A DNA stretch of 64,000 nt from positions 3,472,001-3,536,000 of the forward strand of contig NZ_AP022568.1 of the NCBI RefSeq assembly GCF_010727605.1, in the 5' to 3' direction. This document shows, one piece after another, positions 51,277 through 64,000 of the stretch. The number at the start of each line of letters is the position of its first letter. Position 1 is the first letter of the stretch. The notes beneath the pieces are model-generated. The model was not told the origin of the DNA. It did no database searches and saw nothing but the letters and a program-made list of their open reading frames with translations. Source of the DNA: Mycobacterium simiae. Its GTDB lineage: Bacteria > Actinomycetota > Actinomycetes > Mycobacteriales > Mycobacteriaceae. The position numbers were made by a program, and so were the translations under genes.

Positions 51277-51951
51277 TCAGCGCGCGCGATCCGCTCTTGT
51301 CGTCCGGCGGGCCGCCGCGGTCGACGGTTGGGTCGCGAACGAACGGACGTAGTCGACAGCGGCATTGAGTGCGTCGCGCAGCGGATTGATGGAGTCAGTC
51401 GTCTGGCTGAGCAGCGATCCGCCTTGGTGCGCGGCAACCAGCGCCCGAGCAAGGTGTAGCGGGTCGGCGTCGGCGCGCAGCTCGCCGCGCTTGCGCATGC
51501 GGGCCAAGGCGGTGCGGAACAGTGCGATCCATTCCTCATAGACGGCGCTGATGTCGCTGCGGATGTCGTCCTCGGGTGGGATTAGCTCGCCTACCAGCGA
51601 ACCAAATGCACATCCGCCCACGCAGTTCAGGTCGATTTGTTTCTGGACGTTGAGGTCCGCCCATTTCTGCAGGGCCGCGAAACTGTCCAACGTGGACAGC
51701 TCCCCCGAGGTGTGAAACGTGACCATTTCATTACGTCGCCAAGCGATGATGGCGCGGACCATGGAATGCCTGTCTTTGAGGTAATGGGTCATTTGCGACC
51801 CGCTCACGGAGGCCGCCTTGCGCACATCGCTCTCGACGGTGTTGCGGAGCCCGTGTTTGTAGACCAGATCGGCGGCTGTGCCAACGATCCGCGCATAGGT
51901 GGCCCGGCCCCGGGGGGTTAGTCCGGCTGCGGCGTCATCAGTCATGTCCAA
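51277..51951 (-). CDS. TetR-family transcriptional regulator (copy 2)
   Basis: 224 residues. HTH: GRATYARIVGTAADLVYKHGLRNTVESDVRKAASVSGSQMTHYLKDRHSMVRAII (about residues 14-68). The C-terminal domain has CVGGCAFGSLVGEL, a motif found in TetR_C subfamilies with two cysteines three residues apart (about residues 113-117), which could be redox-active. Paralogous to TetR copy 1. An imperfect palindrome lies 28 bp upstream. Nearest regulator gene to the 43-bp element at 52131. Confidence 0.88.
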   Translation of the reverse strand: MDMTDDAAAGLTPRGRATYARIVGTAADLVYKHGLRNTVESDVRKAASVSGSQMTHYLKDRHSMVRAIIAWRRNEMVTFHTSGELSTLDSFAALQKWADLNVQKQIDLNCVGGCAFGSLVGELIPPEDDIRSDISAVYEEWIALFRTALARMRKRGELRADADPLHLARALVAAHQGGSLLSQTTDSINPLRDALNAAVDYVRSFATQPSTAAARRTTRADRAR

Positions 51952-52130: not shown

Positions 52131-52173
52131 TCACCCGGGGTGAAATCGCGCCGGGGTGATGACGGCTCACCCC
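52131..52173 (+). promoter_or_regulatory. 43-bp bipartite element, copy A (upstream of SDR operon)
   Basis: In gene orientation: TCACCCGGGGTGA (palindrome, one extra G), 9 bp, then GGGGTGA-N7-TCACCCC. Total 43 bp, ending 133 bp before the SDR start at 52307. Same architecture as copies B, C and D in this window. See findings. Confidence 0.8.
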
Positions 52174-52306
52174 AGCCATCAGCAGACTGGCGCCAGTTCA
52201 ACGTCGGCGTGCGTGCCACAGCGGGTGTCGGCGGGGCCTCAACTGTGCTGCCGGGCAACGGGCCCGGCGGGAGTCGCCCGAGAATGAGCAGCGGAAGGAT
52301 CTCGCC

Positions 52307-53077
52307 ATGCACTTCGGTTCCAAGAAGGTCATCGTCGTTGGGGGCAGCGCCGGAATGGGCCGACAGGTCGCTGCTGACGTCGTGCGGCACGGCGGCAGTG
52401 CGGTGATAATCGGCCGGTCGAAGCAGCGGGTCGACGATACCGTCGCCGAATTGAACAGCGGAGGCGGTCAAGCTTGGGGGATCACCGCCGAGTTGACCGA
52501 CCGCGGCGCGGTCGCCGACGTTCAGCGGACACTCGCCGAACAGCACGCCGATGCGACGCTACTGGTCAATGCGGCCGGATTCTTCATCCCCAAGCCATTT
52601 CTCGAGTGCGACGAGCGGGTTTACGACTCGTACATGGAGCTCAACTACGCTCTGTTCTTCCTGACCCAGACCGTGGTTCGCGGCATGATCGCCAAGGCGC
52701 AGGGCGGGGCGATCGTCAATATCGGCAGCATGTGGGCGCACCAAGCGATCGGTGCGACACCATCCTCGGCGTATTCGATGCAAAAGGCCGGCCTGCATGC
52801 CCTCACCCATAACCTGGCCATCGAACTCGCCACCCACCAGATCCGGGTCAACGCGGTAGCCCCAGCCGTCGTGAAGACACCGCTCTACGAGGGCTTCATC
52901 CCGAAGGACGAGATCGACGCCACATTACAGACTTTCGCGCCGATTCATCCGCTGGGACGTGTCGGCACTGCGGCCGACGTGGCCAACGCAGTAACTTACC
53001 TGCTCTCCGACGAGGCAAGTTGGGTTACCGGCGCGATCCTCAACGTCGACGGCGGCGTGATGGCTGGACGCAACTAG
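52307..53077 (+). CDS. Short-chain dehydrogenase/reductase
   Basis: 256-residue classical SDR. The cofactor motif is [19 protein letters not shown] (residues about 8-26), VNAAGFF corresponds to NNAG, and the catalytic Ser and Tyr-x-x-x-Lys occur in [24 protein letters not shown]. The [15 protein letters not shown] and C-terminal [15 protein letters not shown] ([15 protein letters not shown]) regions complete the fold. Substrate unknown. GGAAGGATC before the ATG. First gene of a likely operon running to the NDH-2 gene at 58957; preceded by a 43-bp element. Confidence 0.9.
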
Positions 53078-53146
53078 TCAAACGACGTCAAACGCGCCGA
53101 AATGCCAATGGCATCGGCATAAACGTGCGTCAACGAAGGAGATCAG

Positions 53147-53608
53147 GTGTCACACCAATACCGCAGGGATCCCGCCGCGGTCGAATCGCTTAGCACCGCG
53201 CAGTACCACGTCACCCAGGAGAACGGGACGGAGCTTCCTTTCACAGGTGAGTACTGCGACAACCATGAGCCCGGTATATACGTCGACATTGTCTCCGGCG
53301 AACCGCTTTTCGCTTCGGTGGACAAATTCGATAGCGGAAGTGGCTGGCCCAGCTTCACCAGGCCCATCGGCGCGGATAGCGTTGTCGAGCGGCAAGATCG
53401 CAGCCACTTCATGGATCGGGTAGAGGTGCGCTCGGTCCACGCGGACAGTCACCTCGGGCACGTCTTCCCGGACGGCCCAACAGAAGCCGGGGGATTGCGT
53501 TACTGCATCAACTCGGCGTCGTTGCGATTCATCCACCGCGACGACCTGGAAGCCCAGGGCTATGGGCGCTTTCTGCACTTGTTCGCCAAGGACGGGCAGC
53601 AGTCATGA
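53147..53608 (+). CDS. msrB: Peptide-methionine (R)-S-oxide reductase MsrB
   Basis: 153 residues. MsrB reduces the R epimer of methionine sulfoxide. Substrate-binding [16 protein letters not shown] (about residues 63-78) and the catalytic Cys in [12 protein letters not shown] (about 121-132), together with [10 protein letters not shown], are conserved. The zinc-binding CxxC pairs of many MsrB proteins are absent (SGEPLFAS replaces CGxxLF), so this is the zinc-free type. GTG start after GAAGGAGATCAG. Overlaps msrA by ATGA. Confidence 0.93.
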
Positions 53609-54162
53609 ACGGCCACAACAAGGTCGCCATTCTCGCGGGTGGGTGCTTTTGGGGTATGGAAGAGCTATTCCGTGAGCGACCCGGGGTCGTGTCGACCCGA
53701 GTCGGCTACACCGGCGGCAGGAACACGCATCCCACCTACCGCAATCATCCCGGCCACGCCGAGGCACTCGAAATCACCTATGACCCAGACGAGACCGATT
53801 ATCGGGCGCTGCTGGAATTCTTCTTCCAGATCCACAACCCGACCACCAAGGATCGTCAGGGCAACGATGTCGGAAGCAGTTACCGGTCGGCTATTTATTA
53901 TCTCGACGAGGAGCAAAAGCAAATCGCAGCGGACACCATCGCCGACGTCGAGGCTTCAGGGCGATGGCCTGGCCCCGTCGTCACGGAGGTCAATCCGGCC
54001 GGCGAGTTCTGGGAGGCCGAACCCGAACACCAGAAGTATCTGCAACGCTACCCATCCGGCTACACCTGCCACTACATCCGGCCGGAATGGTCGTTGCGCA
54101 ACCGCGACGGCGGTGTCGACACACCGGCAGTCACGGCGCAGCATGCCAAGCCCTCCCAGTAA
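53605..54162 (+). CDS. msrA: Peptide-methionine (S)-S-oxide reductase MsrA
   Basis: 185 residues. The catalytic GCFWG motif is at about residues 13-17 ([29 protein letters not shown]). Further conserved regions are [22 protein letters not shown] and [19 protein letters not shown]. It reduces the S epimer of methionine sulfoxide; with MsrB both epimers are covered. The recycling cysteine is probably the one in GYTCHY. ATG overlaps the msrB stop, so the two are translationally coupled. Confidence 0.95.
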
Positions 54163-54222
54163 CGACGTCGGTTCGGCCACGCCGGACGGGGGCGTTCTTC
54201 GACGACGATTGGCGGCGACCCG

Positions 54223-55311
54223 ATGACGCAGAATCTCAATCTGGCCGCACTCTCCGCTGCGGGGGTGTCGATCTGGCTCGATGACTTGTCCCGCACCCTG
54301 CTGCAATCCGGCAAGCTACGGCGACTCATCGACACGAGAAGCGTTGTCGGGGTGACCACCAATCCGTCCATCTTTGAGCGCGCACTCACCCACGGGCGCG
54401 CCTACGATAACCAGATCGCCGAGCTGACGGCCCGCGGTATCGATACCGAAACCGCGGTCCGTACGGCGATCACCGACGATGTTCGGGCGGCCTGCGACGT
54501 GCTGCGCCCGCAGTGGGAGGACTCCGACTGCGTCGACGGAAGAGTCTCCATCGAAGTCGACCCGACGTTGGCCGACGACACCGATGCGACCGTGTCGCAG
54601 GCCATCGAGTTGACCAAGGTCGTCGACCGACCCAACGTTTTCGTCAAGATACCGGCCACTGCGGCCGGGTTGCCCGCGATCACCGCCGCGCTGGCCACAG
54701 GTATCTGCGTCAACGTGACCCTGATCTTTTCTGTCGAACGCCACCGGGCGGTGATGGACGCCTACCTAGCCGGTCTGGAAACCGCTCGGCGGGGCGGGGT
54801 AGACATTTCCCAGATACATTCAGTCGCATCACTTTTCGTGTCCCGCCTGGATGTCGAGGTTGACAGACGACTCGAGGAGATCGGCACCGACGCGGCGCTC
54901 AGGCTACGAGGACAGGCCGGTATCGCCAACGCGAGATTGGCCTACGAGGCCTACCGGCAAGTCTTCGATACAGCGCCGCGATACGCGGCACTGCGCGCGG
55001 CGGGTGCGCGCGTGCAACGCCCGCTGTGGGCCTCCACCGGCGTAAAGAATCCGGGTTACCCCGACACGCTGTACGTCACCGAGCTGGTGGCCGCCAATAC
55101 GGTCAGCACCATTGCCCAGCCGACCCTGGAGGCGGCGGCCGACCACGCCGTCATCACCGGTGACACGCTGTCCGGGACGGCCGCACAGGCGCGGGAAGTG
55201 TTCGACCGACTGGCCGCGGTGGGCATCGATATGCCAGACGTGTTCGCCGTACTCGAACACGAAGGCGTGTCCAAGTTTCAGGCGTCCTGGTCGCGCGCTG
55301 TTCGACGTTGA
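54223..55311 (+). CDS. tal: Transaldolase
   Basis: 362 residues of the mycobacterial transaldolase type. The N-terminus [40 protein letters not shown] contains the conserved [22 protein letters not shown] holds the Schiff-base lysine; INVTLIFS-like [19 protein letters not shown] and [14 protein letters not shown] complete the barrel. It links fructose 6-phosphate, erythrose 4-phosphate and sedoheptulose 7-phosphate in the non-oxidative pentose pathway, supporting NADPH supply. Probably a second copy, as the housekeeping tal lies elsewhere in M. tuberculosis. Confidence 0.92.
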
Positions 55312-55358
55312 CGAACCAAGCGGCAGTTCGAGTTTCACTCATCTAGGAGATCCAGCCA

Positions 55359-57074
55359 ATGTCCACATCGGCACCCCCGTTGCAGGAGCTGCGGGCCAGC
55401 CGGCCATTTCCGGAGCGTGCCGGCCCCGCGGGTACCTTGATCTACCGGCTGATCACGACCACCGATCACAAGACGATCGGAACGATGTACATCGTCGCGT
55501 GTTTCGCGTTCTTTTTCATCGGCGGATTCATGGCCCTGCTGATCCGTGCCGAGCTAGCTGCGCCCGGGTTGCAGTTCCTGTCCAACGAGCAATACAACCA
55601 GCTGTTCACCATGCACGGCACGGTCATGCTGCTGTTTTATGCGACTCCGATCGTCTTCGGATTCGCCAACCTGGTGCTGCCCCTGCAAATCGGGGCCCCC
55701 GACGTCGCCTTCCCGCGACTCAACGCAGTCTCGTTCTGGCTCTTTGTGTTCGGTGCATTGATCGCCCTAGGGGGCTTCATCGCGCCCGGCGGCCCCGCCG
55801 ACTTCGGTTGGACTGCCTACAATCCGCTTTCCAACGCCGTGCATTCCCCGGGACCGGGAGGCGACTTATGGATCCTCGGCCTCATCGTCGGCGGGTTGGG
55901 TACCATCCTGGGCGGTGTCAACATGATCACCACCGTGGTGTGCTTGCGGGCGCCCGGCATGACGATGTTTCGGATGCCGATTTTCACCTGGAACATCCTG
56001 GTCACCAGCATCATGGTGCTGGTGGCCTTCCCGCTGCTGACGGCCGCGCTGTTTGGGTTGGCCGCCGACCGTCACCTCGGGGCGCATGTGTTCGACCCCG
56101 CCAACGGTGGAGTCTTGTTGTGGGAGCATATGTTCTGGTTCTTCGGGCACCCCGAGGTCTACATCATCGCGCTGCCCTTCTTCGGGATTATTTCCGAAGT
56201 CATCCCGGTGTTCTCGCGCAAACCGATGTTTGGTTACTCCACCATGGTGTACGCCACCATCAGCATCGGGGCGCTATCGATCGCGGTGTGGGCCCACCAT
56301 CTGTATGCCACCGGTGCCGTGTTGCTGCCGTTCTTTTCGTTCATGACCTACATGATCGCCGTCCCCACCGGGATCAAGTTCGTCAACTGGATCGGGACCA
56401 TGTGGCGCGGACAGCTGACCTTCGAAACTCCGATGCTGTTCGCGGTGGGGTTTTTGGTGACCTTTCTGCTCGGCGGCCTGTCGGGCGTGCTACTGGCCAG
56501 CCCGCCGGTGGACTTCCACGTCACCGACACATATTTTGTGGTGGCTCACTTCCATTACGTGCTGTTCGGCACCATCGTGTTCGCGACGTACGCGGGGGTG
56601 TACTTCTGGTTTCCCAAGATGACTGGGCGGCTCCTTGATGAACGCCTGGGCAAGCTGCACTTCTGGTTGACGCTAATCGGTTTCCACACAACGTTTTTGG
56701 TACAACACGTGCTGGGCAACGAGGGTATGCCGCGACGCTACGCCGACTACCTGCCGACCGACGGCTTCCAGGGCCTCAACATCATCTCGACGATCGGGGC
56801 GTTCACCCTAGGGGCTTCGATGCTGCCGTTTGTGTGGAATGTGTTCCGCAGCTGGCGCTATGGCGAGCCAGTCACCGCCGACGACCCGTGGGGTTATGGC
56901 AACTCCTTGGAGTGGGCCACCAGCAGCCCGCCCCCGCGGCATAACTTCACCGAACTGCCCCGCATCCGCTCCGAGCGGCCCGCCTTCGAGTTGCACTATC
57001 CGCACATGGTCAACCGGATGCGCAACGAGGCACATGTTCAACGGGGACGAGAGAAGAAGCGGAGGCGGCACTGA
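55359..57074 (+). CDS. ctaD: Cytochrome c oxidase subunit I (aa3-type) CtaD paralogue
   Basis: 571 residues, 12 TM segments. Haem and copper ligands are complete: [22 protein letters not shown] (low-spin haem His), [20 protein letters not shown] (CuB His and the cross-linked His-Tyr HPEVY), [10 protein letters not shown] (CuB pair) and [14 protein letters not shown] (haem a3/a ligands). Proton-channel residues also appear present. It is very close to the M. tuberculosis CtaD I recall but ends in a short basic tail (GREKKRRRH) instead. Probably an additional copy embedded in a stress-type operon. Downstream gene starts at its last base (TGATG). Confidence 0.93.
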
Positions 57075-57514
57075 TGGGGATTTCCGAATTCGACGATGTG
57101 CAGGCTCATCTGCTCGGACCAGAAGAGAGTTTGGACTCCGAACAGACCGGCATCGATTTCGATGAGGGCTACTCACCCCCGGAGCGCCCGCGTGAATTGT
57201 GGGCGTGGGGCCTGACCGCCTGGGAAGCGCGTACCCATGAAAGTCTGGCTCGCCGACTGGCCCGTGAGGTGCCCGAGGTGACCGATCAGGACGACGGCGA
57301 TGGAATCGGCGATAGCGCCGACAGCGCCGGTGACCCAATCGACGATCAGGTCGGCGACATGCGCGCAGGCCGGCTTGTCGCGGTGGACATCGACCCCGCA
57401 TATCCAGGGTTGGATTATCTCGCCCGCGACGTCGGCATTGACGGGGGCGCCGCCTCGGCCGAGGAGGCCGCAATGCACATCGTCGTCGCCGAAGACACCG
57501 GCGACGGCGAGTAG
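57074..57514 (+). CDS. DUF5709 acidic protein
   Basis: 146-residue strongly acidic soluble protein. DFDEGYSPPERPRELWAWGLTAWEARTHESLARRLAREVPEV (about residues 28-70) matches the DUF5709 pattern (SPPER then ESL-x-x-RLA-x-E), followed by a Gly/Asp-rich acidic linker and a C-terminal AEEAAMHIVVAED that is shared with many DUF5709 proteins. Function unknown; such genes are widespread in actinobacteria. It begins at the last base of the ctaD stop (TGATG), indicating re-initiation coupling. Confidence 0.85.
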   Translation: MGISEFDDVQAHLLGPEESLDSEQTGIDFDEGYSPPERPRELWAWGLTAWEARTHESLARRLAREVPEVTDQDDGDGIGDSADSAGDPIDDQVGDMRAGRLVAVDIDPAYPGLDYLARDVGIDGGAASAEEAAMHIVVAEDTGDGE

Positions 57515-57589
57515 TAGCACTCTCGATGGCGCGTCAGCCATCGTCGCCCCGGCCCCCTGTGGACCCTAAATACAGACTGGAGCACCGAA

Positions 57590-58957
57590 TTGAACACGGT
57601 TCCCCGTTTCCGCCAGCCGCATAAGAGCAAACCTGCCACCTCGGTTGTCATCGTTGGCAGCGGATTCGCCGCTTTCGAATGCGCGCGTCGACTGACTCGA
57701 TCGTTAGACAGGGCGCGGGCCTCCCACGTGACGGTGACGATCATTTCCCCGGTCGATTACTTGCAGTACTCCCCATTGCTGGCTGACGTCGCCGGTGGGC
57801 TGGTCGACCCGCGGTTTGTCTGTGTCCCGCTAGCCGGAACGCTCAGGGGCGTGCGGGTGGTGCGTGGCCGTGTCGATCGCGTTGACCTCGATCGGCATGT
57901 GCTCTCGTTCACCGATCCCGAGGGCGGGGTGGGCACGCTGTCCTGGGATCGGCTGGTCTTGACGCCGGGCTCGGTGACCCGACTATTCGATACGCCGGGA
58001 TTGACCGACTACGCGCACGGGCTGAAGTCGACGGCCGAGGCGCTGTACCTGCGTGATCGGGTGATCGAGCAGTTGGAGCTGGCTCAGGTCGACGAAGACG
58101 CGGCGCGCGCGGCGGCGCGACGCACGATTGTTGTTGTCGGAGCGTCGTATTCGGGTTCCGAACTGACGGCGCAATTGCGCGCGCTTGCCGACGCGGCGGC
58201 AAAACAGATGGGCTTTGACCGGACCTCGGTGCGGTTTGTCCTGCTGGATTTGGCCGACCGCGTCATGCCGGAGCTGGGTGCAAAGCTCGGCGACGCGGCG
58301 ATGCGCGTTCTGCGCTCTCGCGGGATCGACGTGCGGTTGCGCACGACCGTGACGGAGGTACACGCTGACCATGTTGTGCTCAGCGATGATTCGCGTGTCG
58401 ACACTTACACGGTAGCGTGGGTGGCGGGCGTGACACCATCACCGCTGATTGCCACGCTGGGCCTGGGAACCGAGCGGGGTCGGCTCAAGGTGCAGACCGA
58501 TTTGCAGGTCCCAGGTCACGCGGATGTGTTCGCCGCGGGCGACGCTGCCGCCGTTCCCGACCTGACTCAGCCGGGCAGGATCGCCCCGCCCACCGCCCAG
58601 CACGCGGTCCGGCAAGGTAGGACGTTGGCCCGCAACGTCGCCGCGAGTCTCGGCTACGGCAAACCGAAGGCCTACCGCCATAGCGACAAGGGTTTGGTCG
58701 TCGACCTGGGGCCGCGCTACGCCGTCGCCAACCCGCTCGGAGTGCACCTGTCCGGTTATCCCGCCAAGATTGTCACCCGCGCCTACCACCTCTACGCGAT
58801 TCCCCGGCTCGTCAACCGCTGGGCGGTCGCAATCGCATATTTCACGGATGTCTTCTTCACCCGCACCGTGTTGTCAATGGGTTTCGTTTGCGGTCCCGAT
58901 ACCCAACTCATGGCCGGCGAAGCCATCCAGTTACCAAAGGCTGCAGGGGCAGAATAG
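57590..58957 (+). CDS. Type II NADH dehydrogenase (NDH-2) family protein
   Basis: 455 residues with two Rossmann motifs: VVIVGSGFAAFECARRLTRSL for FAD (about residues 17-37) and IVVVGASYSGSELTAQLRAL for NAD(P)H (about 180-200). ADVFAAGDAAAVPD closes the FAD site, and a C-terminal membrane-associated helix AIPRLVNRWAVAIAYFTDVFF follows. It would oxidise NADH and pass electrons to menaquinone without pumping protons. FAAFE instead of FGGL/FAGL in the first motif marks it as a divergent paralogue of Ndh. TTG start at 57590; upstream AGACTGGAG is the best ribosome site. Confidence 0.88.
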   Translation: MNTVPRFRQPHKSKPATSVVIVGSGFAAFECARRLTRSLDRARASHVTVTIISPVDYLQYSPLLADVAGGLVDPRFVCVPLAGTLRGVRVVRGRVDRVDLDRHVLSFTDPEGGVGTLSWDRLVLTPGSVTRLFDTPGLTDYAHGLKSTAEALYLRDRVIEQLELAQVDEDAARAAARRTIVVVGASYSGSELTAQLRALADAAAKQMGFDRTSVRFVLLDLADRVMPELGAKLGDAAMRVLRSRGIDVRLRTTVTEVHADHVVLSDDSRVDTYTVAWVAGVTPSPLIATLGLGTERGRLKVQTDLQVPGHADVFAAGDAAAVPDLTQPGRIAPPTAQHAVRQGRTLARNVAASLGYGKPKAYRHSDKGLVVDLGPRYAVANPLGVHLSGYPAKIVTRAYHLYAIPRLVNRWAVAIAYFTDVFFTRTVLSMGFVCGPDTQLMAGEAIQLPKAAGAE

Positions 58958-58989
58958 AGTCACCGAATGCGGCGTCCCTCGCTGGGTCC

Positions 58990-59032
58990 TCGCCCGGGTG
59001 AAATGAGCGGGCGGATGAAGACGTCTCACCCC
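58990..59032 (+). promoter_or_regulatory. 43-bp bipartite element, copy B (upstream of RidA-like gene)
   Basis: In gene orientation: TCGCCCGGGTGA, 10 bp, then CGGATGA-N7-TCACCCC; total 43 bp. It ends 127 bp before the RidA-like start at 59160. See findings for the comparison of the four copies. Confidence 0.8.
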
Positions 59033-59159
59033 CGGCGGGCGAATAGTGGTCGTTGATCCAAACAGCTTCACCCGCAGGCACGGTCCGACCAGTCTTCGGG
59101 ACAGGTGTTCAGGCGCAACGACTTTAGCTCAACCGATCAATGATGAGAGGAACCCGCAG

Positions 59160-59588
59160 ATGGCCACGCTCGAATTTTTTGATACCCCCGGATACGGCGA
59201 GATCGCCCGTACCCGCAACCGATACCGGCAAGCCTTGCGCATGGGTGACCGCGTCGAGATCTCCGGTCAAGGTGGCTGGGAGGCGGACTTCACTATGTCG
59301 ACCACTTCCCTGCAGGAGGAGATCGTCAAGGCGTGCGACAACGTCGAAAAGACGCTCGCCGAAGCGGGAGCCAGCTTCAGCGACGTCGTGAGCGTCCACT
59401 CCTATCATGTGTCGGCCGGTGACGACTGCATTGGCGAGGAACATATGTCGGCAATGGTCGACCAGTTCCGCGAGCGGTTCGGCGAGAATGTGCCACTGTG
59501 GACCGCGGTGGGGGTCAAGGCGCTGGCACTGCCTGAGCAGCGTGTCGAGATCGAAGTCGTCGCTATCGTCGGATCCGGCGGCAAGTAG
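59160..59588 (+). CDS. RidA/YjgF-family protein lacking the usual catalytic arginine
   Basis: 142 residues of the YjgF/YER057c/UK114 fold: RYRQALRMGDRVEISGQGGWEADF at the N-terminus, DNVEKTLAEAGASFSDVVSVHSYHV in the middle and VPLWTAVGVKALALPEQRVEIEVVAIVG at the end. Canonical RidA enamine/imine deaminases carry Arg in the PxRxxV position; here it is VPLWTAV, so the enzyme activity is probably absent and another ligand-binding or chaperone role is possible. ATG at 59160 follows GAGAGGAACCCGCAG. RidA of E. coli becomes a chaperone after chlorination, noted as context only. Confidence 0.88.
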   Translation: MATLEFFDTPGYGEIARTRNRYRQALRMGDRVEISGQGGWEADFTMSTTSLQEEIVKACDNVEKTLAEAGASFSDVVSVHSYHVSAGDDCIGEEHMSAMVDQFRERFGENVPLWTAVGVKALALPEQRVEIEVVAIVGSGGK

Positions 59589-59635
59589 ACGTCGGCAGCG
59601 CCGGGCCGCGCCGTGGGCCCCGGACGGAGACACGC

Positions 59636-60214
59636 GTGGACCGAATATTCCATGCCCTGGTTGGTGACGCGCCCGCCGCGATCGACGCCGCCGTCAAAGC
59701 CGCTGCGCTGTTCCTCACCGCTGCGGTCCTATTCCGATTCATGGAGCGTCGCACCCTCGCCGAATTCGCGCCGTTCGACTGGATCGCTGCAGTGGCCACG
59801 GGCGCCATCGTCGGACGGGCCGCGACCGCCAGCGACACCTCGTGGCTCAGCGCGACGACGGCGCTCGTTTGTCTGCTTGTCGCCCACGCCGTATTAGCGA
59901 GATTGCGCTTCATTCCGGCGATTCGGCGCTTCATCGACCCGCCGCTGAGAGTGCTGATCCGGGACGGAAACCTCGATCGGCGTAACCTGCGTCGGTGCGG
60001 TCTGACCACCGCCGACCTCGAGGCGGTACTGCGAGAGCACGGACACGAGAGCCCCGACCGTGTTCACCTCGCCATTTTCGAAGCCAAAGGGGTCATCTCG
60101 ATCCTGGAACGGCTGGAAACCGACGACGAAAGCGACTGTCTGGATGCACCTCGCAAAGTGCGCCCGCATGGGCCTGAAAGCCGGCAATGCGGCGGTCATC
60201 AACTCGGCCCCTAG
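59636..60214 (+). CDS. DUF421 (YetF-type) membrane protein
   Basis: 192 residues. Three TM segments (AAALFLTAAVLFRFMERRT..., FDWIAAVATGAIVGRAAT, TTALVCLLVAHAVLARL) precede the DUF421 soluble domain: DPPLRVLIRDGNLDRRNLRRCGLTTADLEAVLREHGHESPDRVHLAIFEAKGVISIL. This is the YetF/YdfR-type arrangement. Function unknown; some family members are linked to spore or envelope stress. GTG start, 47 bp after the RidA-like stop, so it may share its promoter and the 43-bp element B. Confidence 0.85.
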   Translation: MDRIFHALVGDAPAAIDAAVKAAALFLTAAVLFRFMERRTLAEFAPFDWIAAVATGAIVGRAATASDTSWLSATTALVCLLVAHAVLARLRFIPAIRRFIDPPLRVLIRDGNLDRRNLRRCGLTTADLEAVLREHGHESPDRVHLAIFEAKGVISILERLETDDESDCLDAPRKVRPHGPESRQCGGHQLGP

Positions 60215-60305
60215 CACTCGGCCGACCGTGCCAAGCGGCATGATCCAACACACTGGGCCCTGAAACAGGCCGTACGCCACGAACGCAGAGACGCCTGGGA
60301 GACGC

Positions 60306-61310
60306 CTAGGATTCGGCGCGTTGAGAGGCCAAGGCCGACACAAAGTGCTCAATGACCATGACATTGCGCGCGACGTCAGCGACCGCGTGTGCCGTGGGAG
60401 TCGGGATATGAATTGAACCGGGGACATCGGCGGCGCCGACGACTACCACGTTTGATCCCTTCTTCAGAAGATCGTCCGCCAGTGCGGACAAGGCGGCATC
60501 ACCGGGACGACCCGAACCAAAAAGGATCGCGGTGAGTTGGGCGTTTGCGCGGCGCACGACGCTGGGCAGACTCCGCTCCCCGATGTGTCCCTGGGCGTCG
60601 ACCCCCGTCATGTCATTCGTCAGCAATGCCGCGTACAGAGCGACGGCGGCATGCTCATTGAATCCGATGTAGGCCAGGCGCGAACCCTGCTGGGCGGCCA
60701 CGCCTGCGGCGACTTTGCGAAGTTCTCTCGGCAAGGTCGCTGTCGCGACAATATCCGCGGTAGCGGCGACATCGTCATTGTCTTCATTGAGGATCATCGA
60801 GGCGACGTAGTCGTGGGCTATCAGCGCGTTCAAAAACCCTGTCGGACTTCCCGATGCCCCGCTACGTAGCAGAACTTCACAGTCACAGACAGCGGCCAGG
60901 GGACTGGCCATGTCATCGGTAATGGCGACCACCGCTGCCGGTGTCACGGTGCGGCCGAGCTCATAGGTCAAAGCTCGCACCCGTGCGCTGCAACCCGACC
61001 GCGATGTGACGACCAGCAGCGAGTCGGACGTGAGTTGTTGCGGATCCTCCAACAGATCCTTCGTATCGATCCACCAAGCCGCTTCGCCCGCCGCCACGAG
61101 CCGCCGCCAACTCGGCAAGGCCGCGATATGCGATGCGCCCATTCCCGTGAAGAAGACGCGGCGCCGGTGATCACGAAGTATTGGGTACAAGCCCAGCGAG
61201 ATCGGAGCTCGGTTGAACTCGAGCAACGACCGGGCCTGAGCCCGCGCATCAACCCGAAGCCGGGGGACCGAGCGCCTATCGCAAAGTAGCAGCGCCGTTC
61301 TGGGGTTCAC
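60306..61310 (-). CDS. Two-domain SIS (sugar isomerase) protein
   Basis: 334 residues. Two SIS domains: FFTGMGASHIAALPSWRRLVAAG ... LLVVTSRSGCSARVRALTYEL (about 50-135) and RLAYIGFNEHAAVALYAALLTNDMTGVDAQGHIGE (about 210-250). The arrangement resembles the isomerase half of GlmS or AgaS-like proteins but without a glutaminase domain. It may isomerise or deaminate an aminosugar phosphate, or sense one; the conserved GlmS C-terminal loop is not obvious. GTG start at 61310 with AAAGGGG upstream. A 43-bp element lies 77 bp before the start. Confidence 0.85.
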   Translation of the reverse strand: MNPRTALLLCDRRSVPRLRVDARAQARSLLEFNRAPISLGLYPILRDHRRRVFFTGMGASHIAALPSWRRLVAAGEAAWWIDTKDLLEDPQQLTSDSLLVVTSRSGCSARVRALTYELGRTVTPAAVVAITDDMASPLAAVCDCEVLLRSGASGSPTGFLNALIAHDYVASMILNEDNDDVAATADIVATATLPRELRKVAAGVAAQQGSRLAYIGFNEHAAVALYAALLTNDMTGVDAQGHIGERSLPSVVRRANAQLTAILFGSGRPGDAALSALADDLLKKGSNVVVVGAADVPGSIHIPTPTAHAVADVARNVMVIEHFVSALASQRAES

Positions 61311-61386
61311 CGGTTCATACCCCTTTGTGAGTCGTTCGACGTGGCTGTTCAGCTACGGGCGTTGACTAATGAGCGTGCCGCACACT

Positions 61387-61429
61387 CGGGTGAGGTGTCA
61401 TCACCCGCGCGTGCTATTCACCCGGGTGA
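61387..61429 (-). promoter_or_regulatory. 43-bp bipartite element, copy C (upstream of SIS gene)
   Basis: On the minus strand: TCACCCGGGTGA (perfect 12-bp palindrome, 61418-61429), 10 bp, then CGGGTGA-N7-TCACCCG (61387-61407). It is the most symmetric of the four copies. It lies 77 bp before the SIS start on the same strand. Confidence 0.85.
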
Positions 61430-61483
61430 TGGCCAACGCGGGTAGGCCCGACGACGGTGAGGTCGAAACGTTCCGGGTCAAAG

Positions 61484-62719
61484 CTAGCTTGTGCCAACGC
61501 CTTCCAGGACCACCGCTACCGCCTGGCCTGAGCCGATGCACACCCCGATGACCCCATAACGGGCGCCTCGTTCACGCAACTCGGTCGCCAGCGTCAGCAG
61601 ATAACGAGTTCCCGTAGCCCCGAAGGGGTGGCCGATCGCGACCGCGCCACCGTTAGGAGTCAGCTTGTCATCGGGTACCACGAAACCGTGTAGCTGGTTT
61701 GGTAGTTCCCGCAGCACGCCCAGGGCTTGTGCGCTGAACGCTTCGTGCACCTCCCACACGTCAATCTGCCCGGGAGCAAGTCCTGCCCGGTGGATCGCGG
61801 CCGGGATTGCCCATGCGGGGGCCACGCCCATAATGAGGGGGTCGATGCCATACACCGCACTCGATACCACCCGGGCTAACGGCTGGATACCGAGTTCGTC
61901 GGCTCGCTCGCCGGAAGCGATGACGACAGCACTGGCACCATCGCTCAACGGTGAGGAGTTGCCTGCCGTCATCTGGGTGGTGCCGGGCTGGGCCGGTAAA
62001 GCGGCCAGCGCTTCGGTGCTGGTATCGCGGATGAACTCGTCGTGTTCTGCCAGCCGGGTAGGTGTCCTCTTATCGCCCGGAATAGGTACGGGCATGATCT
62101 CTTTGGCGAGTCGACCTCGATCTCGTGCGTTCTTGGCCCGTTGCTGGGATCGCAGTGCGAAGGCGTCGATCTCCTCGCGCGTCAGTGAGTACCGGTCGGC
62201 CACGTTTTGCGCGGTCTCGATCATGCTCAGGTAGGCATTGCGGGCTACCAGTACCGGGTTGGGTGGGCCTCCGGCGCCGCTCCACATGGTGTCGAGCATG
62301 AGAATCGGCCCTCGGGGGCTGAACGCGGCGTCACCCTTTGGCAGTGCCCAGCCCGATCGAGACATCGACTCGACCCCGCAGGCGATGCCCAGGCCGAGAT
62401 CGCCGGCCTTGATCGCGTGACTGATGCTCACCGCCGCGCTCAATGACGATCCACAAAATCGGTTCACGGTGACACCGGCTGCGGTGTCGGGAAATCCGGC
62501 GGCCAACGCTGCCCATCGGGCGATGTCGCCCATGCCCTCGTGCGCAGGGTTCACGCAGCCGGCGACGATATCTTCTACGGCGTCGAGGGGCACACCCAGC
62601 CGATCGCAGGCGCCCTTCATCGTCATTCCCAGCAAGTCATCGGTCCGAATACCCGACAGCGTGCCCCCGTAGCGGGTGAACGGGGTTCGTGTGCCTCCCA
62701 AAACGTAAGCCTCGGTCAT
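61484..62719 (-). CDS. Acetyl-CoA C-acetyltransferase-type thiolase
   Basis: 411 residues of the canonical degradative thiolase type. Nucleophile Cys is in VTVNRFCGSSLSAAV (about residue 89), NEAF is replaced by HEAFSAQALGVL, the catalytic His is in GGAVAIGHPFGATGTR, and the second Cys is in GVCIGSGQAVAVVLE. All catalytic residues are present, so it can cleave or condense acyl-CoAs. It starts 42 bp after the stop of an unknown gene, so both are probably transcribed together from the region of element D. Confidence 0.93.
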   Translation of the reverse strand: MTEAYVLGGTRTPFTRYGGTLSGIRTDDLLGMTMKGACDRLGVPLDAVEDIVAGCVNPAHEGMGDIARWAALAAGFPDTAAGVTVNRFCGSSLSAAVSISHAIKAGDLGLGIACGVESMSRSGWALPKGDAAFSPRGPILMLDTMWSGAGGPPNPVLVARNAYLSMIETAQNVADRYSLTREEIDAFALRSQQRAKNARDRGRLAKEIMPVPIPGDKRTPTRLAEHDEFIRDTSTEALAALPAQPGTTQMTAGNSSPLSDGASAVVIASGERADELGIQPLARVVSSAVYGIDPLIMGVAPAWAIPAAIHRAGLAPGQIDVWEVHEAFSAQALGVLRELPNQLHGFVVPDDKLTPNGGAVAIGHPFGATGTRYLLTLATELRERGARYGVIGVCIGSGQAVAVVLEGVGTS

Positions 62720-62761
62720 TGCGGCGCTTTGGAATACGTCAGGTCGAAGACTTTGACTGGG

Positions 62762-63253
62762 CTAAATCGCATCGCATTGCTGCAATCGGATGACGGCCAG
62801 CATCATGTGCAACTGTGGCTCCTCTGGGCTGCCGGCATAGCCGCTCAGCCAGCTGGTCAGCTTTGACAGTGTGGCTTGCGGCAGCGCAATCCGGTTGGAC
62901 AGGATCGCGGCGAAGATGTGTTTGATCGCGAGAAGGCTTTCTTCGCAACCGAGTTCGACGAAGACAACGGTACGTTCGTAGCCGGTCAGATACGATTTCA
63001 CCGCTTCGACCAGTGACCACGCCATGTCTTTGTCGGAAATTGTCGACCGGTCGTGGCGGTGGCGCGATGGCGAGATCGAAGCGCGACTCGCGAAGGTTAG
63101 TGCCATCGCCGGCAGCGAACGCCGCACGGCCCGGTCGATGGCTGCAGTGCCGTTCCCGCCGACGGCATCGTTCCGGGACGGGGGCCGCACGGCGGTAGTG
63201 CCACCGCCACCCGCTATCTGGTCGCTAACCCTGTAGGCATGTCCTGGTTCCAT
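62762..63253 (-). CDS. Hypothetical protein of the oxidant-response-like cluster
   Basis: 163 residues, family not recognised. The C-terminal 87 residues (MAWSLVEAVKSYLTGYERTVVFVELGCEESLLAIKHIFAAILSNRIALPQATLSKLTSWLSGY...LHMMLAVIRLQQ) look like a compact helical domain; the N-terminal 76 are Arg/Ser-rich. ATG at 63253 follows GGCAAGGAACC; ATG at 63025 is the alternative if the N-terminal part is not real. The position of element D, 141 bp before 63253, favours the longer form. Probably co-transcribed with the downstream thiolase. Confidence 0.55.
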   Translation of the reverse strand: MEPGHAYRVSDQIAGGGGTTAVRPPSRNDAVGGNGTAAIDRAVRRSLPAMALTFASRASISPSRHRHDRSTISDKDMAWSLVEAVKSYLTGYERTVVFVELGCEESLLAIKHIFAAILSNRIALPQATLSKLTSWLSGYAGSPEEPQLHMMLAVIRLQQCDAI

Positions 63254-63394
63254 CCCGGTTCCTTGCCGTGCTGGGCCATGGTCTCATGGCTGTCATCTTG
63301 ATCGGTTCAACTCGTAGCGCGGAATGGGACTACGTACTGTCACATGCTCCGGAGTCCACCGATATCTGCTCGTCCAGTGAGGCTGCGCCTGCAT

Positions 63395-63437
63395 GGGGTG
63401 AATTGTCGCCACCCTGGACGTCTTTTCGCCCGGGTGA
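63395..63437 (-). promoter_or_regulatory. 43-bp bipartite element, copy D (upstream of unknown gene/thiolase)
   Basis: On the minus strand: TCACCCGGGCGA (63426-63437), 10 bp, then AGGGTGG-N7-TCACCCC (63395-63415). It lies 141 bp before the unknown gene start and 95 bp after the DUF417 stop, so it is placed to control the unknown gene and thiolase rather than DUF417. Confidence 0.78.
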
Positions 63438-63531: not shown

Positions 63532-64000
63532 TCAGTCGGTGCTCTCGCGAAATATCGCGCGCAGCGTCGCCTGTCTGCGGGCTGCGTCAATCGCGTCCAC
63601 CAGCAGCCACAACGCCAGACCGAGGAGCGCGATGTCCTTCATCAAGAACTCCCCATCGGCGGACAAAACAGGAAAGCCGCCAGCCGACGCCTCACCGGTG
63701 CCCGGTGTCGTGATCATGAAGCTCAGCGTGGTGAGGAAGAATAGTGAGGCGAACACCCCGCCCACCACCGACGCCTTTGGCAACCATGGCTTGGCGGCTA
63801 GTAGTGCCGCGGTGACCAATTCTACCGTTCCGTTCAATCGACCAAAGGCGTCGATGGACATGGTGCTGTAGACCCAACCCAGGAAGGGGCTGTTAGCCAC
63901 CCAATGTGAAATGCCTTGTGATTCATAGTGAGTGAATTTCATGGCGCCGAACCAAACCAGGACTATCACCAAACCATACCTTGCGACCAAAGGCGCGACG
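63532..64000 (-). CDS. DUF417 (YkgB/RclC-type) membrane protein, 5'-truncated by window edge
   Basis: At least 152 residues visible. RYGLVIVLVWFGAMKFTHYESQGISHWVANSPFLGWVYSTMSIDAFGRLNGTVELVTAALLAAKPWL matches the DUF417 signature (K-F-T-x-Y-E and the NSP-W-Y pattern), with four hydrophobic segments. The frame stays open to the window edge, and the family usually has about 20 more N-terminal residues, so the start lies outside. E. coli RclC, a family member, is induced by and protects against reactive chlorine species. Confidence 0.85.
   Translation of the reverse strand, partial: VAPLVARYGLVIVLVWFGAMKFTHYESQGISHWVANSPFLGWVYSTMSIDAFGRLNGTVELVTAALLAAKPWLPKASVVGGVFASLFFLTTLSFMITTPGTGEASAGGFPVLSADGEFLMKDIALLGLALWLLVDAIDAARRQATLRAIFRESTD

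Follow-up and report, generated by a model that had tools for sequence, protein, structure and literature searches.

A repeated promoter element and a candidate MalT-like activator of a redox gene island in Mycobacterium simiae and related mycobacteria

Three of the closest described systems are governed by MalT-like regulators. MalT is a STAND activator, which forms oligomers upon binding of its inducer and then occupies several boxes (PMC10427625, PMC6468293, PMC7567727), whereby the published box core is GGA(T/G)GA (PMC7567727) and malPp800 carries four MalT sites (PMC10427625, PMC6468293). In Actinoplanes sp. SE50/110, a MalT-like LuxR regulator encoded in a 51-gene region activates 40 of these genes, GGATGA-type sites overlap the -35 box at 17 transcription starts, and no maltose genes are involved (PMC7567727). 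IniR (Rv0339c, MMAR_0612) is a mycobacterial STAND activator with ATPase, MalT-domain-III-like and LuxR-type DNA-binding domains, which responds to trehalose and controls only iniBAC (PMC5760070); it is the one MalT-like STAND activator of mycobacteria found in the literature searched. Here, we analyzed a 64,000-nt stretch of the Mycobacterium simiae genome (NZ_AP022568.1, positions 3,472,001 to 3,536,000; hereafter the window), in which a two-part element of 43 bp occurs four times upstream of different genes. We consider it quite probable that redox and methionine-sulfoxide repair genes of an island form a regulon, which a MalT-type activator drives via a composite promoter that contains this element.

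The half-sites of the element follow the order TCACCC-GGGTGA-11-GGRTGA-7-TCACCC, whereby the first two form a palindrome and the last two a gene-proximal repeat. The original prediction, which was made from the letters of the window, held the motif to be unlike that of any known regulator, but GGRTGA resembles the core of the MalT box as published. As in Actinoplanes, the candidate regulator is encoded inside its own region and the sites lie over the -35 box; the Actinoplanes motif TCATCC-5nt-GGATGA ends 34.4 +/- 1.0 nt from the start, as compared to about 36 nt here, and consists of one inverted pair, whereas four half-sites are present here (PMC7567727). With E. coli MalT, the system shares the STAND architecture and multiple boxes, and ligand-driven oligomerisation is known there and proposed here. 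However, the box reads GGRTGA instead of GGA(T/G)GA, the arrangement is unlike that of the malP-side sites, no maltose genes are among those identified in the islands, and the regulator stays below the cut-off of the MalT model PRK04841. The malP-malT intergenic DNA of E. coli contains TCATCC, GGAGGA and GGATGA. By its description, IniR is likewise a mycobacterial STAND regulator, but it acts on iniBAC only, whereas the regulator considered here belongs to an island that has as many as 16 elements.

Element copies and their predicted promoters

The four copies in the window are the following:

52131..52173, + strand, element A, 5' of the SDR-msrB-msrA-tal-ctaD-DUF5709-ndh run, 133 bp from element end to start codon
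58990..59032, + strand, element B, 5' of the RidA-like and DUF421 genes, 128 bp
61387..61429, - strand, element C, 5' of the SIS-domain gene, 77 bp
63395..63437, - strand, element D, 5' of the gene for an unknown protein and the thiolase gene, 142 bp

All four copies read as originally described, their orientation is that of the downstream gene in 4/4 cases, as had been claimed, and the predicted conservation of GAC in the spacer of the proximal repeat was borne out as well. In order to judge how far such copies arise by chance, the window was scanned with a two-part template, in which mismatches are counted over fixed positions, and compared with 60 third-order Markov surrogates of the 64-kb window. 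At up to 2 mismatches the scan returned exactly the four copies, and none in each of the 60 surrogates; at up to 4 mismatches it again returned four, with a surrogate mean of 0.017 and a maximum of 1. The length of 43 bp, which had been taken to be constant, holds within the window but not among relatives, where 23 of 179 distinct elements have one base fewer between the palindrome and the proximal repeat. Nor is 43 bp the full extent, since, with the first base of the palindrome as position 1, an A at position 54 and a T at position 58 are conserved as well.

These positions were derived from the 179 distinct elements of related mycobacteria, which were collapsed into 66 clusters by their variable parts; a further alignment comprised 111 elements of one spacing class. 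In the 66-cluster profile, positions 29-34 read aTGACA, i.e., a -35 box, position 54 is A with a weight of 58.4/66 clusters, and position 58 is T with a weight of 59.4/66. Position 53, the first base of the -10 box, is T in only 1.0/66 clusters (binomial p 7e-5 at 17% background). In sigma-A promoters this base is usually T, so that a -10 box without it should be weak alone. The -10 box thus reads xAnnnT and is separated by 18 bp from the -35 box; when a -10 box one base closer is also allowed, AnnnT is found in at least one member of 63/66 clusters. Transferred to the window, where A at 54 and T at 58 are present in all four copies, this register yields the following predictions:

52159..52164, + strand, predicted -35 box ATGACG of element A, in the register of the 66-cluster profile
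52183..52188, + strand, predicted -10 box CAGACT of element A, inferred start near 52195
59042..59047, + strand, predicted -10 box AATAGT of element B, predicted start near 59054
61372..61377, - strand, predicted -10 box CACGCT of element C, predicted start near 61365
63380..63385, - strand, predicted -10 box CAGCCT of element D, predicted start near 63373

With the start taken 7 nt past the -10 box, the leaders in the window would measure 55-120 nt, whereby that of copy A is one nt longer than computed. The proximal half-site GGRTGA occupies positions 24-29, overlaps aTGACA and ends about 36 nt before the predicted start. GGA(T/G)GA-like boxes over the -35 box and about 35 nt before the start, which is here a predicted one, are what characterizes a MalT-type regulon. 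Because the proximal repeat spans the -35 box, to which the conserved GAC of its spacer corresponds, we regard the element as the upstream part of a putative shared promoter and not as a free-standing operator.

Conservation, distribution and the co-occurring regulator

The element was next sought at orthologous promoters. Loci were counted when the orthologue was present with enough flank, and were dropped with less than 400 bp of room, less than 60% identity (45% for gene D) or a partial match. The element is present upstream of SDR in 16/16, of RidA in 10/14, of SIS in 7/7, of the unknown gene behind element D in 3/4 and of DUF417 in 12/15 loci. By comparison, none was found upstream of the operon-internal genes msrB (0/18 loci), tal (0/20), ctaD (0/10) and DUF421 (0/16). 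For DUF5709 (9/18) and thiolase (3/11), only part of the loci show a copy upstream, and the same holds for the NDH-like gene (19/34), where the element is absent at all 14 paralogue loci tested and at L002. In the species genome collection, the NDH-like protein of the window has 36 loci, of which 21 carry the element; these belong to Mycobacterium sherrisii, M. triplex, M. scrofulaceum, M. interjectum, M. colombiense, M. tilburgii and other Mycobacterium strains. The remaining 15 loci hold a paralogue at 69-73% identity, 13 of them without element and two with a single match at the limit of 6 mismatches.

Across the genus, of which 396 genomes were sampled from a larger group, the element was detected in 54, with up to 16 copies per genome. 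Scanning related genomes had been suggested together with the original prediction, which named as contrary outcomes an element that is common and unrelated to genes, or one that is not conserved at orthologous promoters. Neither was observed, since the element is uncommon and is conserved at these promoters. Whole-genome scans of five genomes examined closely gave 7 (G001), 5 (G002), 13 (G003), 7 (G004) and 7 (G005) matches, and all those listed are clustered. The clusters span 23-46 kb in four of the five genomes, and that of G005 lies on two contigs; in G001, the 7 elements are found inside 33 kb of a 5.9-Mb contig. Two genomes that have only the ndh paralogue contained no element in the whole-genome scan, and the control pattern gave no match in these scans. 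G310 has two element groups, at about 0.2 and 4.3 Mb. The same genome carries one regulator copy near 0.20 Mb and another near 4.33 Mb, both on one contig and each with elements beside it.

The islands of E183, M. triplex, M. colombiense and M. sherrisii have one recognised regulator in common, a protein of 860-924 residues. Judged by the E183 protein, it consists of a STAND core, a middle part that resembles TPR_MalT (36.2 bits, E=5e-9, under the cut-off of 45) and a GerE domain at the C-terminus (residues 834-886, 47.3 bits against a cut-off of 23.5). The E183 regulator matches the MalT chain 8bob_C of the PDB with E=1.9e-62 over residues 158-574. In blastp comparisons, the regulators of the four islands align with E. 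coli MalT over 431-663 residues at 29-34% identity, and within the DNA-binding domain the identity is 42-45%. As the score against the PRK04841 model lies under the cut-off, we describe the protein as related to MalT by sequence, without filing it as MalT itself. In all four islands an element and the DUF417 gene follow downstream of the regulator gene, whereby in M. colombiense one other gene stands between.

A test for co-occurrence of the element with one regulator gene had likewise been suggested. A regulator match at E<=1e-100 was obtained in 45 of the 396 genomes, and all 45 are element-positive (Fisher p 1e-50), while 342/342 element-free genomes have no match at this threshold. In the 42 genomes whose match reaches the DNA-binding end, four of them with stop codons inside the match, the median is 8 elements (2-16), as compared to 1-2 in the other 12. 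G037 was scored in this count as without regulator, despite a sensor-less copy. Such copies of about 500 residues, which lack a stretch from about residue 530-560 to 814-833 and thereby the sensor part, but retain the DNA-binding domain, are present in G037 (in two frames), G065, G114 and G291, and each of these four genomes has two elements. Among the 25 regulator copies in genomes with listed element places, and among the elements listed, an element starts 27-685 bp past the regulator match on the same strand for 20. For the other 5 there is none within 685 bp downstream on that strand: the distance is 1.1 kb in G002, 1.5 kb in G005 and 3.8 kb for the second copy of G082, the nearest element lies 3.1 kb upstream in G252, and the C60 copy of G322 has a divergent one at 134 bp. 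The idea of one shared regulator and regulon is well supported. The two dimer sites of the original prediction are conjectural; MalT occupies several sites in oligomeric form.

Genes of the window and of the islands

The genes around the four copies are:

51277-51951, TetR-family gene, divergent from the SDR gene
52307..53077, + strand, short-chain dehydrogenase (SDR; Pfam adh_short_C2)
53147..53608, + strand, MsrB (Pfam SelR)
53605..54162, + strand, MsrA (Pfam PMSR)
54223..55311, + strand, transaldolase, tal (Pfam TAL_FSA)
55359..57074, + strand, cytochrome oxidase subunit I, ctaD (Pfam COX1)
57074..57514, + strand, DUF5709 protein
57590..58957, + strand, NDH-like pyridine nucleotide-disulphide oxidoreductase
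59160..59588, + strand, RidA-like protein (Pfam Ribonuc_L-PSP)
59636..60214, + strand, DUF421 (YetF) membrane protein
60306..61310, - strand, SIS-domain protein
61484..62719, - strand, thiolase
62762..63253, - strand, unknown protein without Pfam match
63532..63990, - strand, DUF417 (RclC-related) protein, cut by the window end

The closest relative of the SDR is that of M. sherrisii (93%). The G+C content of the window is 65.8%; third-position G+C of the called genes amounts to 0.70-0.83, mostly below 0.79, between 49200 and 64000, and mostly to 0.75-0.89 before, a fall that fits an island of other origin. Homologues of ctaD with 78-83% DNA identity occur on plasmids of Mycolicibacterium, Mycobacterium, Rhodococcus, Gordonia and Tsukamurella. 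Among the best 20 of 54 records of the plasmid search, ctaD is annotated under the match in 18, one has no feature there and one is unannotated, and none covers 80% of the query. These homologues suggest mobility of the oxidase subunit.

The genes next to the islands vary from one to another; according to labels from translations, they are an aconitase gene in E183, ftsEX-like genes in M. colombiense and an antiporter gene in M. sherrisii and the window. The E183 island encodes a molybdopterin enzyme weakly like MsrP, a nitroreductase, cupins, a DUF326 protein and an NAD(P)H-quinone dehydrogenase, the latter above the model cut-off. It also holds, at L072:10033-18598, three tandem AAA-type LALs of 932-935 residues, which are absent from the M. 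triplex island, where a different LAL is found. Part of the islands contain a gene for an ECF sigma factor that is preceded by an element of its own (G003:C160:105810-106681), which would make a second regulatory tier. MsrA, MsrB, RidA and DUF417 in the window, together with the redox enzymes of E183, suggest that the gene content serves oxidant and electrophile defence.

Enterobacteria respond to reactive chlorine with RclABC and MsrPQ. The islands resemble this response in their MsrA, MsrB, DUF417, weakly MsrP-like molybdopterin enzyme and disulphide oxidoreductases. Against the RclC, MsrP and RclA models, however, the island proteins score far below the cut-offs and are relatives rather than members; the DUF417 protein, cut as it is by the window end, reached 82 bits against the RclC model with a cut-off of 275. 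With these scores, a role in a reactive-chlorine response is a suggestion only.

Weighing of the explanations and meaning

Several observations weigh against control of the islands by the MalT-like regulator. Concerning the element, the reversed control pattern gave one match across the 396 genomes, and in an order-level sample 7/397 genomes had a match, two of which (G499, G612) look like chance. In G193 the elements are spread over three contigs, more than 150 kb apart, and thus break the rule of a single cluster. The element is missing from 4/14 RidA and 3/15 DUF417 loci, and ndh promoters have lost the fourth half-site while keeping the first three and the -35 box, for which reason the fourth box looks dispensable. 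GGGTGA is a commoner half-site than GGATGA, and the spacing is unlike that of E. coli and Actinoplanes. Concerning the regulator, the E183 protein does not reach the cut-off of the NCBIfam MalT equivalog PRK04841 (400.8 bits, cut-off 537), the best match contains stop codons in four of the 45 genomes, and the four islands also share an unknown 163-residue protein. The window breaks off inside the DUF417 gene and does not contain the regulator gene, which presumably lies beside it, past base 64000. Six of 8 element-positive genomes without a close regulator have no match even at E<=1e-20; the other two have a 54-residue fragment (G067) and a 36% homologue (G081), with 1-2 elements each. Conversely, when 8 element-free genomes were tested with this threshold, one (G019) proved to have a 32% homologue. 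The six genomes without match (G093, G122, G249, G272, G275, G284) carry 1-2 elements each, which are perhaps relics or belong to genes borrowed by another factor. Finally, co-occurrence alone does not prove binding, given that it is expected of every gene that is passed on together with the island, and activation by the candidate at the predicted boxes is a proposal drawn from sequence.

It might be that the activator is not the MalT-like protein but the islands' other LuxR-type regulator, the AAA-ATPase LAL proteins, which occur in tandem and measure about 935 residues. They are encoded in these islands as well, with three copies in a row in E183, they carry a GerE domain at their end, and 36 of the 59 LAL-bearing genomes found among the 396 are element-positive. 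Yet the other 23 have no element, six genomes (G001, G152, G158, G310, G322, G365) combine the MalT-like regulator and 5-11 elements with no LAL at E<=1e-100, and blastp aligns the LAL to MalT only at the C-terminal helix-turn-helix end, which makes this explanation improbable. Even less can be said for the box pair being the promoter of the island ECF sigma factor instead of a sigma-A promoter with an activator. An ECF gene with its own element in some islands and the -10 box without the usual first T would suit it, but the island version (at least 71% identity) occurs in only 21/54 element-positive genomes, and G001, with 7 elements, has only two homologues of the ECF factor, one of 60% that lies outside the island and another of 45%. 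ECF-class promoters have GGAAC and GTT boxes, which the -35 and -10 boxes do not resemble. Both the AAA-type LALs and the island ECF factor thus track the element more weakly than the MalT-like regulator does.

TetR proteins bind palindromes, and a TetR-family gene is adjacent to and divergent from SDR (51277-51951) in the window and in M. sherrisii, so a local repressor of this kind could in principle recognise the element. Close homologues (80-90%) are, however, found at only 2/36 NDH loci (L002, L010), the element-rich stretches of M. triplex, E183 and M. colombiense have no TetR homologue at E<=1e-10, and a -10 box lacking its T suits activation rather than repression; the chance of this explanation is accordingly very slim. 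Transposition of a mobile or non-coding repeat would account for several near-identical copies within one region, but is refuted: the flanks of the copies differ, the copies sit at orthologous promoters (SDR 16/16), and those of the window are all oriented to the next gene, with the -10 box at a near-fixed distance.

For activation by the MalT-like regulator, we infer binding, oligomerisation, sigma-A use, ligand and physiological role from sequence comparisons in the following way. The element would supply the -35 box and the activator sites of a composite promoter that measures about 60 bp, and its four GGRTGA-type half-sites would be bound by the MalT-like STAND/LuxR activator encoded in the same chromosomal island. 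This protein would be monomeric and silent until a ligand binds, would then form oligomers on the half-site array and would hold sigma-A RNA polymerase on the -10 box that lacks its first T. Such a -10 box would keep the promoters silent without activator, with activation taking place at -35, and all island promoters would fire together. The products would include msrA/msrB, RidA, DUF417, flavin disulphide reductases as well as NDH-like and quinone reductases, so that the regulon would serve the repair of damaged methionine and the response to oxidants. A more far-reaching picture, which is possible but rather doubtful, would be that of a self-contained island with about a dozen promoters of one obligate-activator design. 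Here, a four-box array would be fused to the -35 box, T would be barred from the first base of the -10 box against leak, an all-or-none switch would be thrown by a STAND oligomer sensing an oxidant-linked metabolite, and the lineages that lost the sensor (four genomes) would have been cut to two promoters.

An island regulon run by an internally encoded MalT-like protein (Actinoplanes) and a mycobacterial STAND activator (IniR) are already known. As far as was searched, new are the four-box geometry fused to the -35 box, the T-less -10 box, the mycobacterial island regulon and the natural sensor-less regulators. No description of the element was found among the best matches in the literature searched (MalT/LuxR/STAND/LAL, mycobacteria and Msr/hypochlorite, with subscription journals mostly outside), and the only match to the palindrome string was a cloning paper on Newcastle disease virus. 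For a large island of redox and methionine-repair genes in a group of mycobacteria, to which M. colombiense and M. scrofulaceum belong, the analysis thus names a regulator, an operator and a promoter that can be tested. With its fixed design of 60 bp, present in up to 16 copies per genome, and with natural sensor-less regulators, the island would make a good system for studying STAND assembly on DNA and the shrinking of a regulon after sensor loss.

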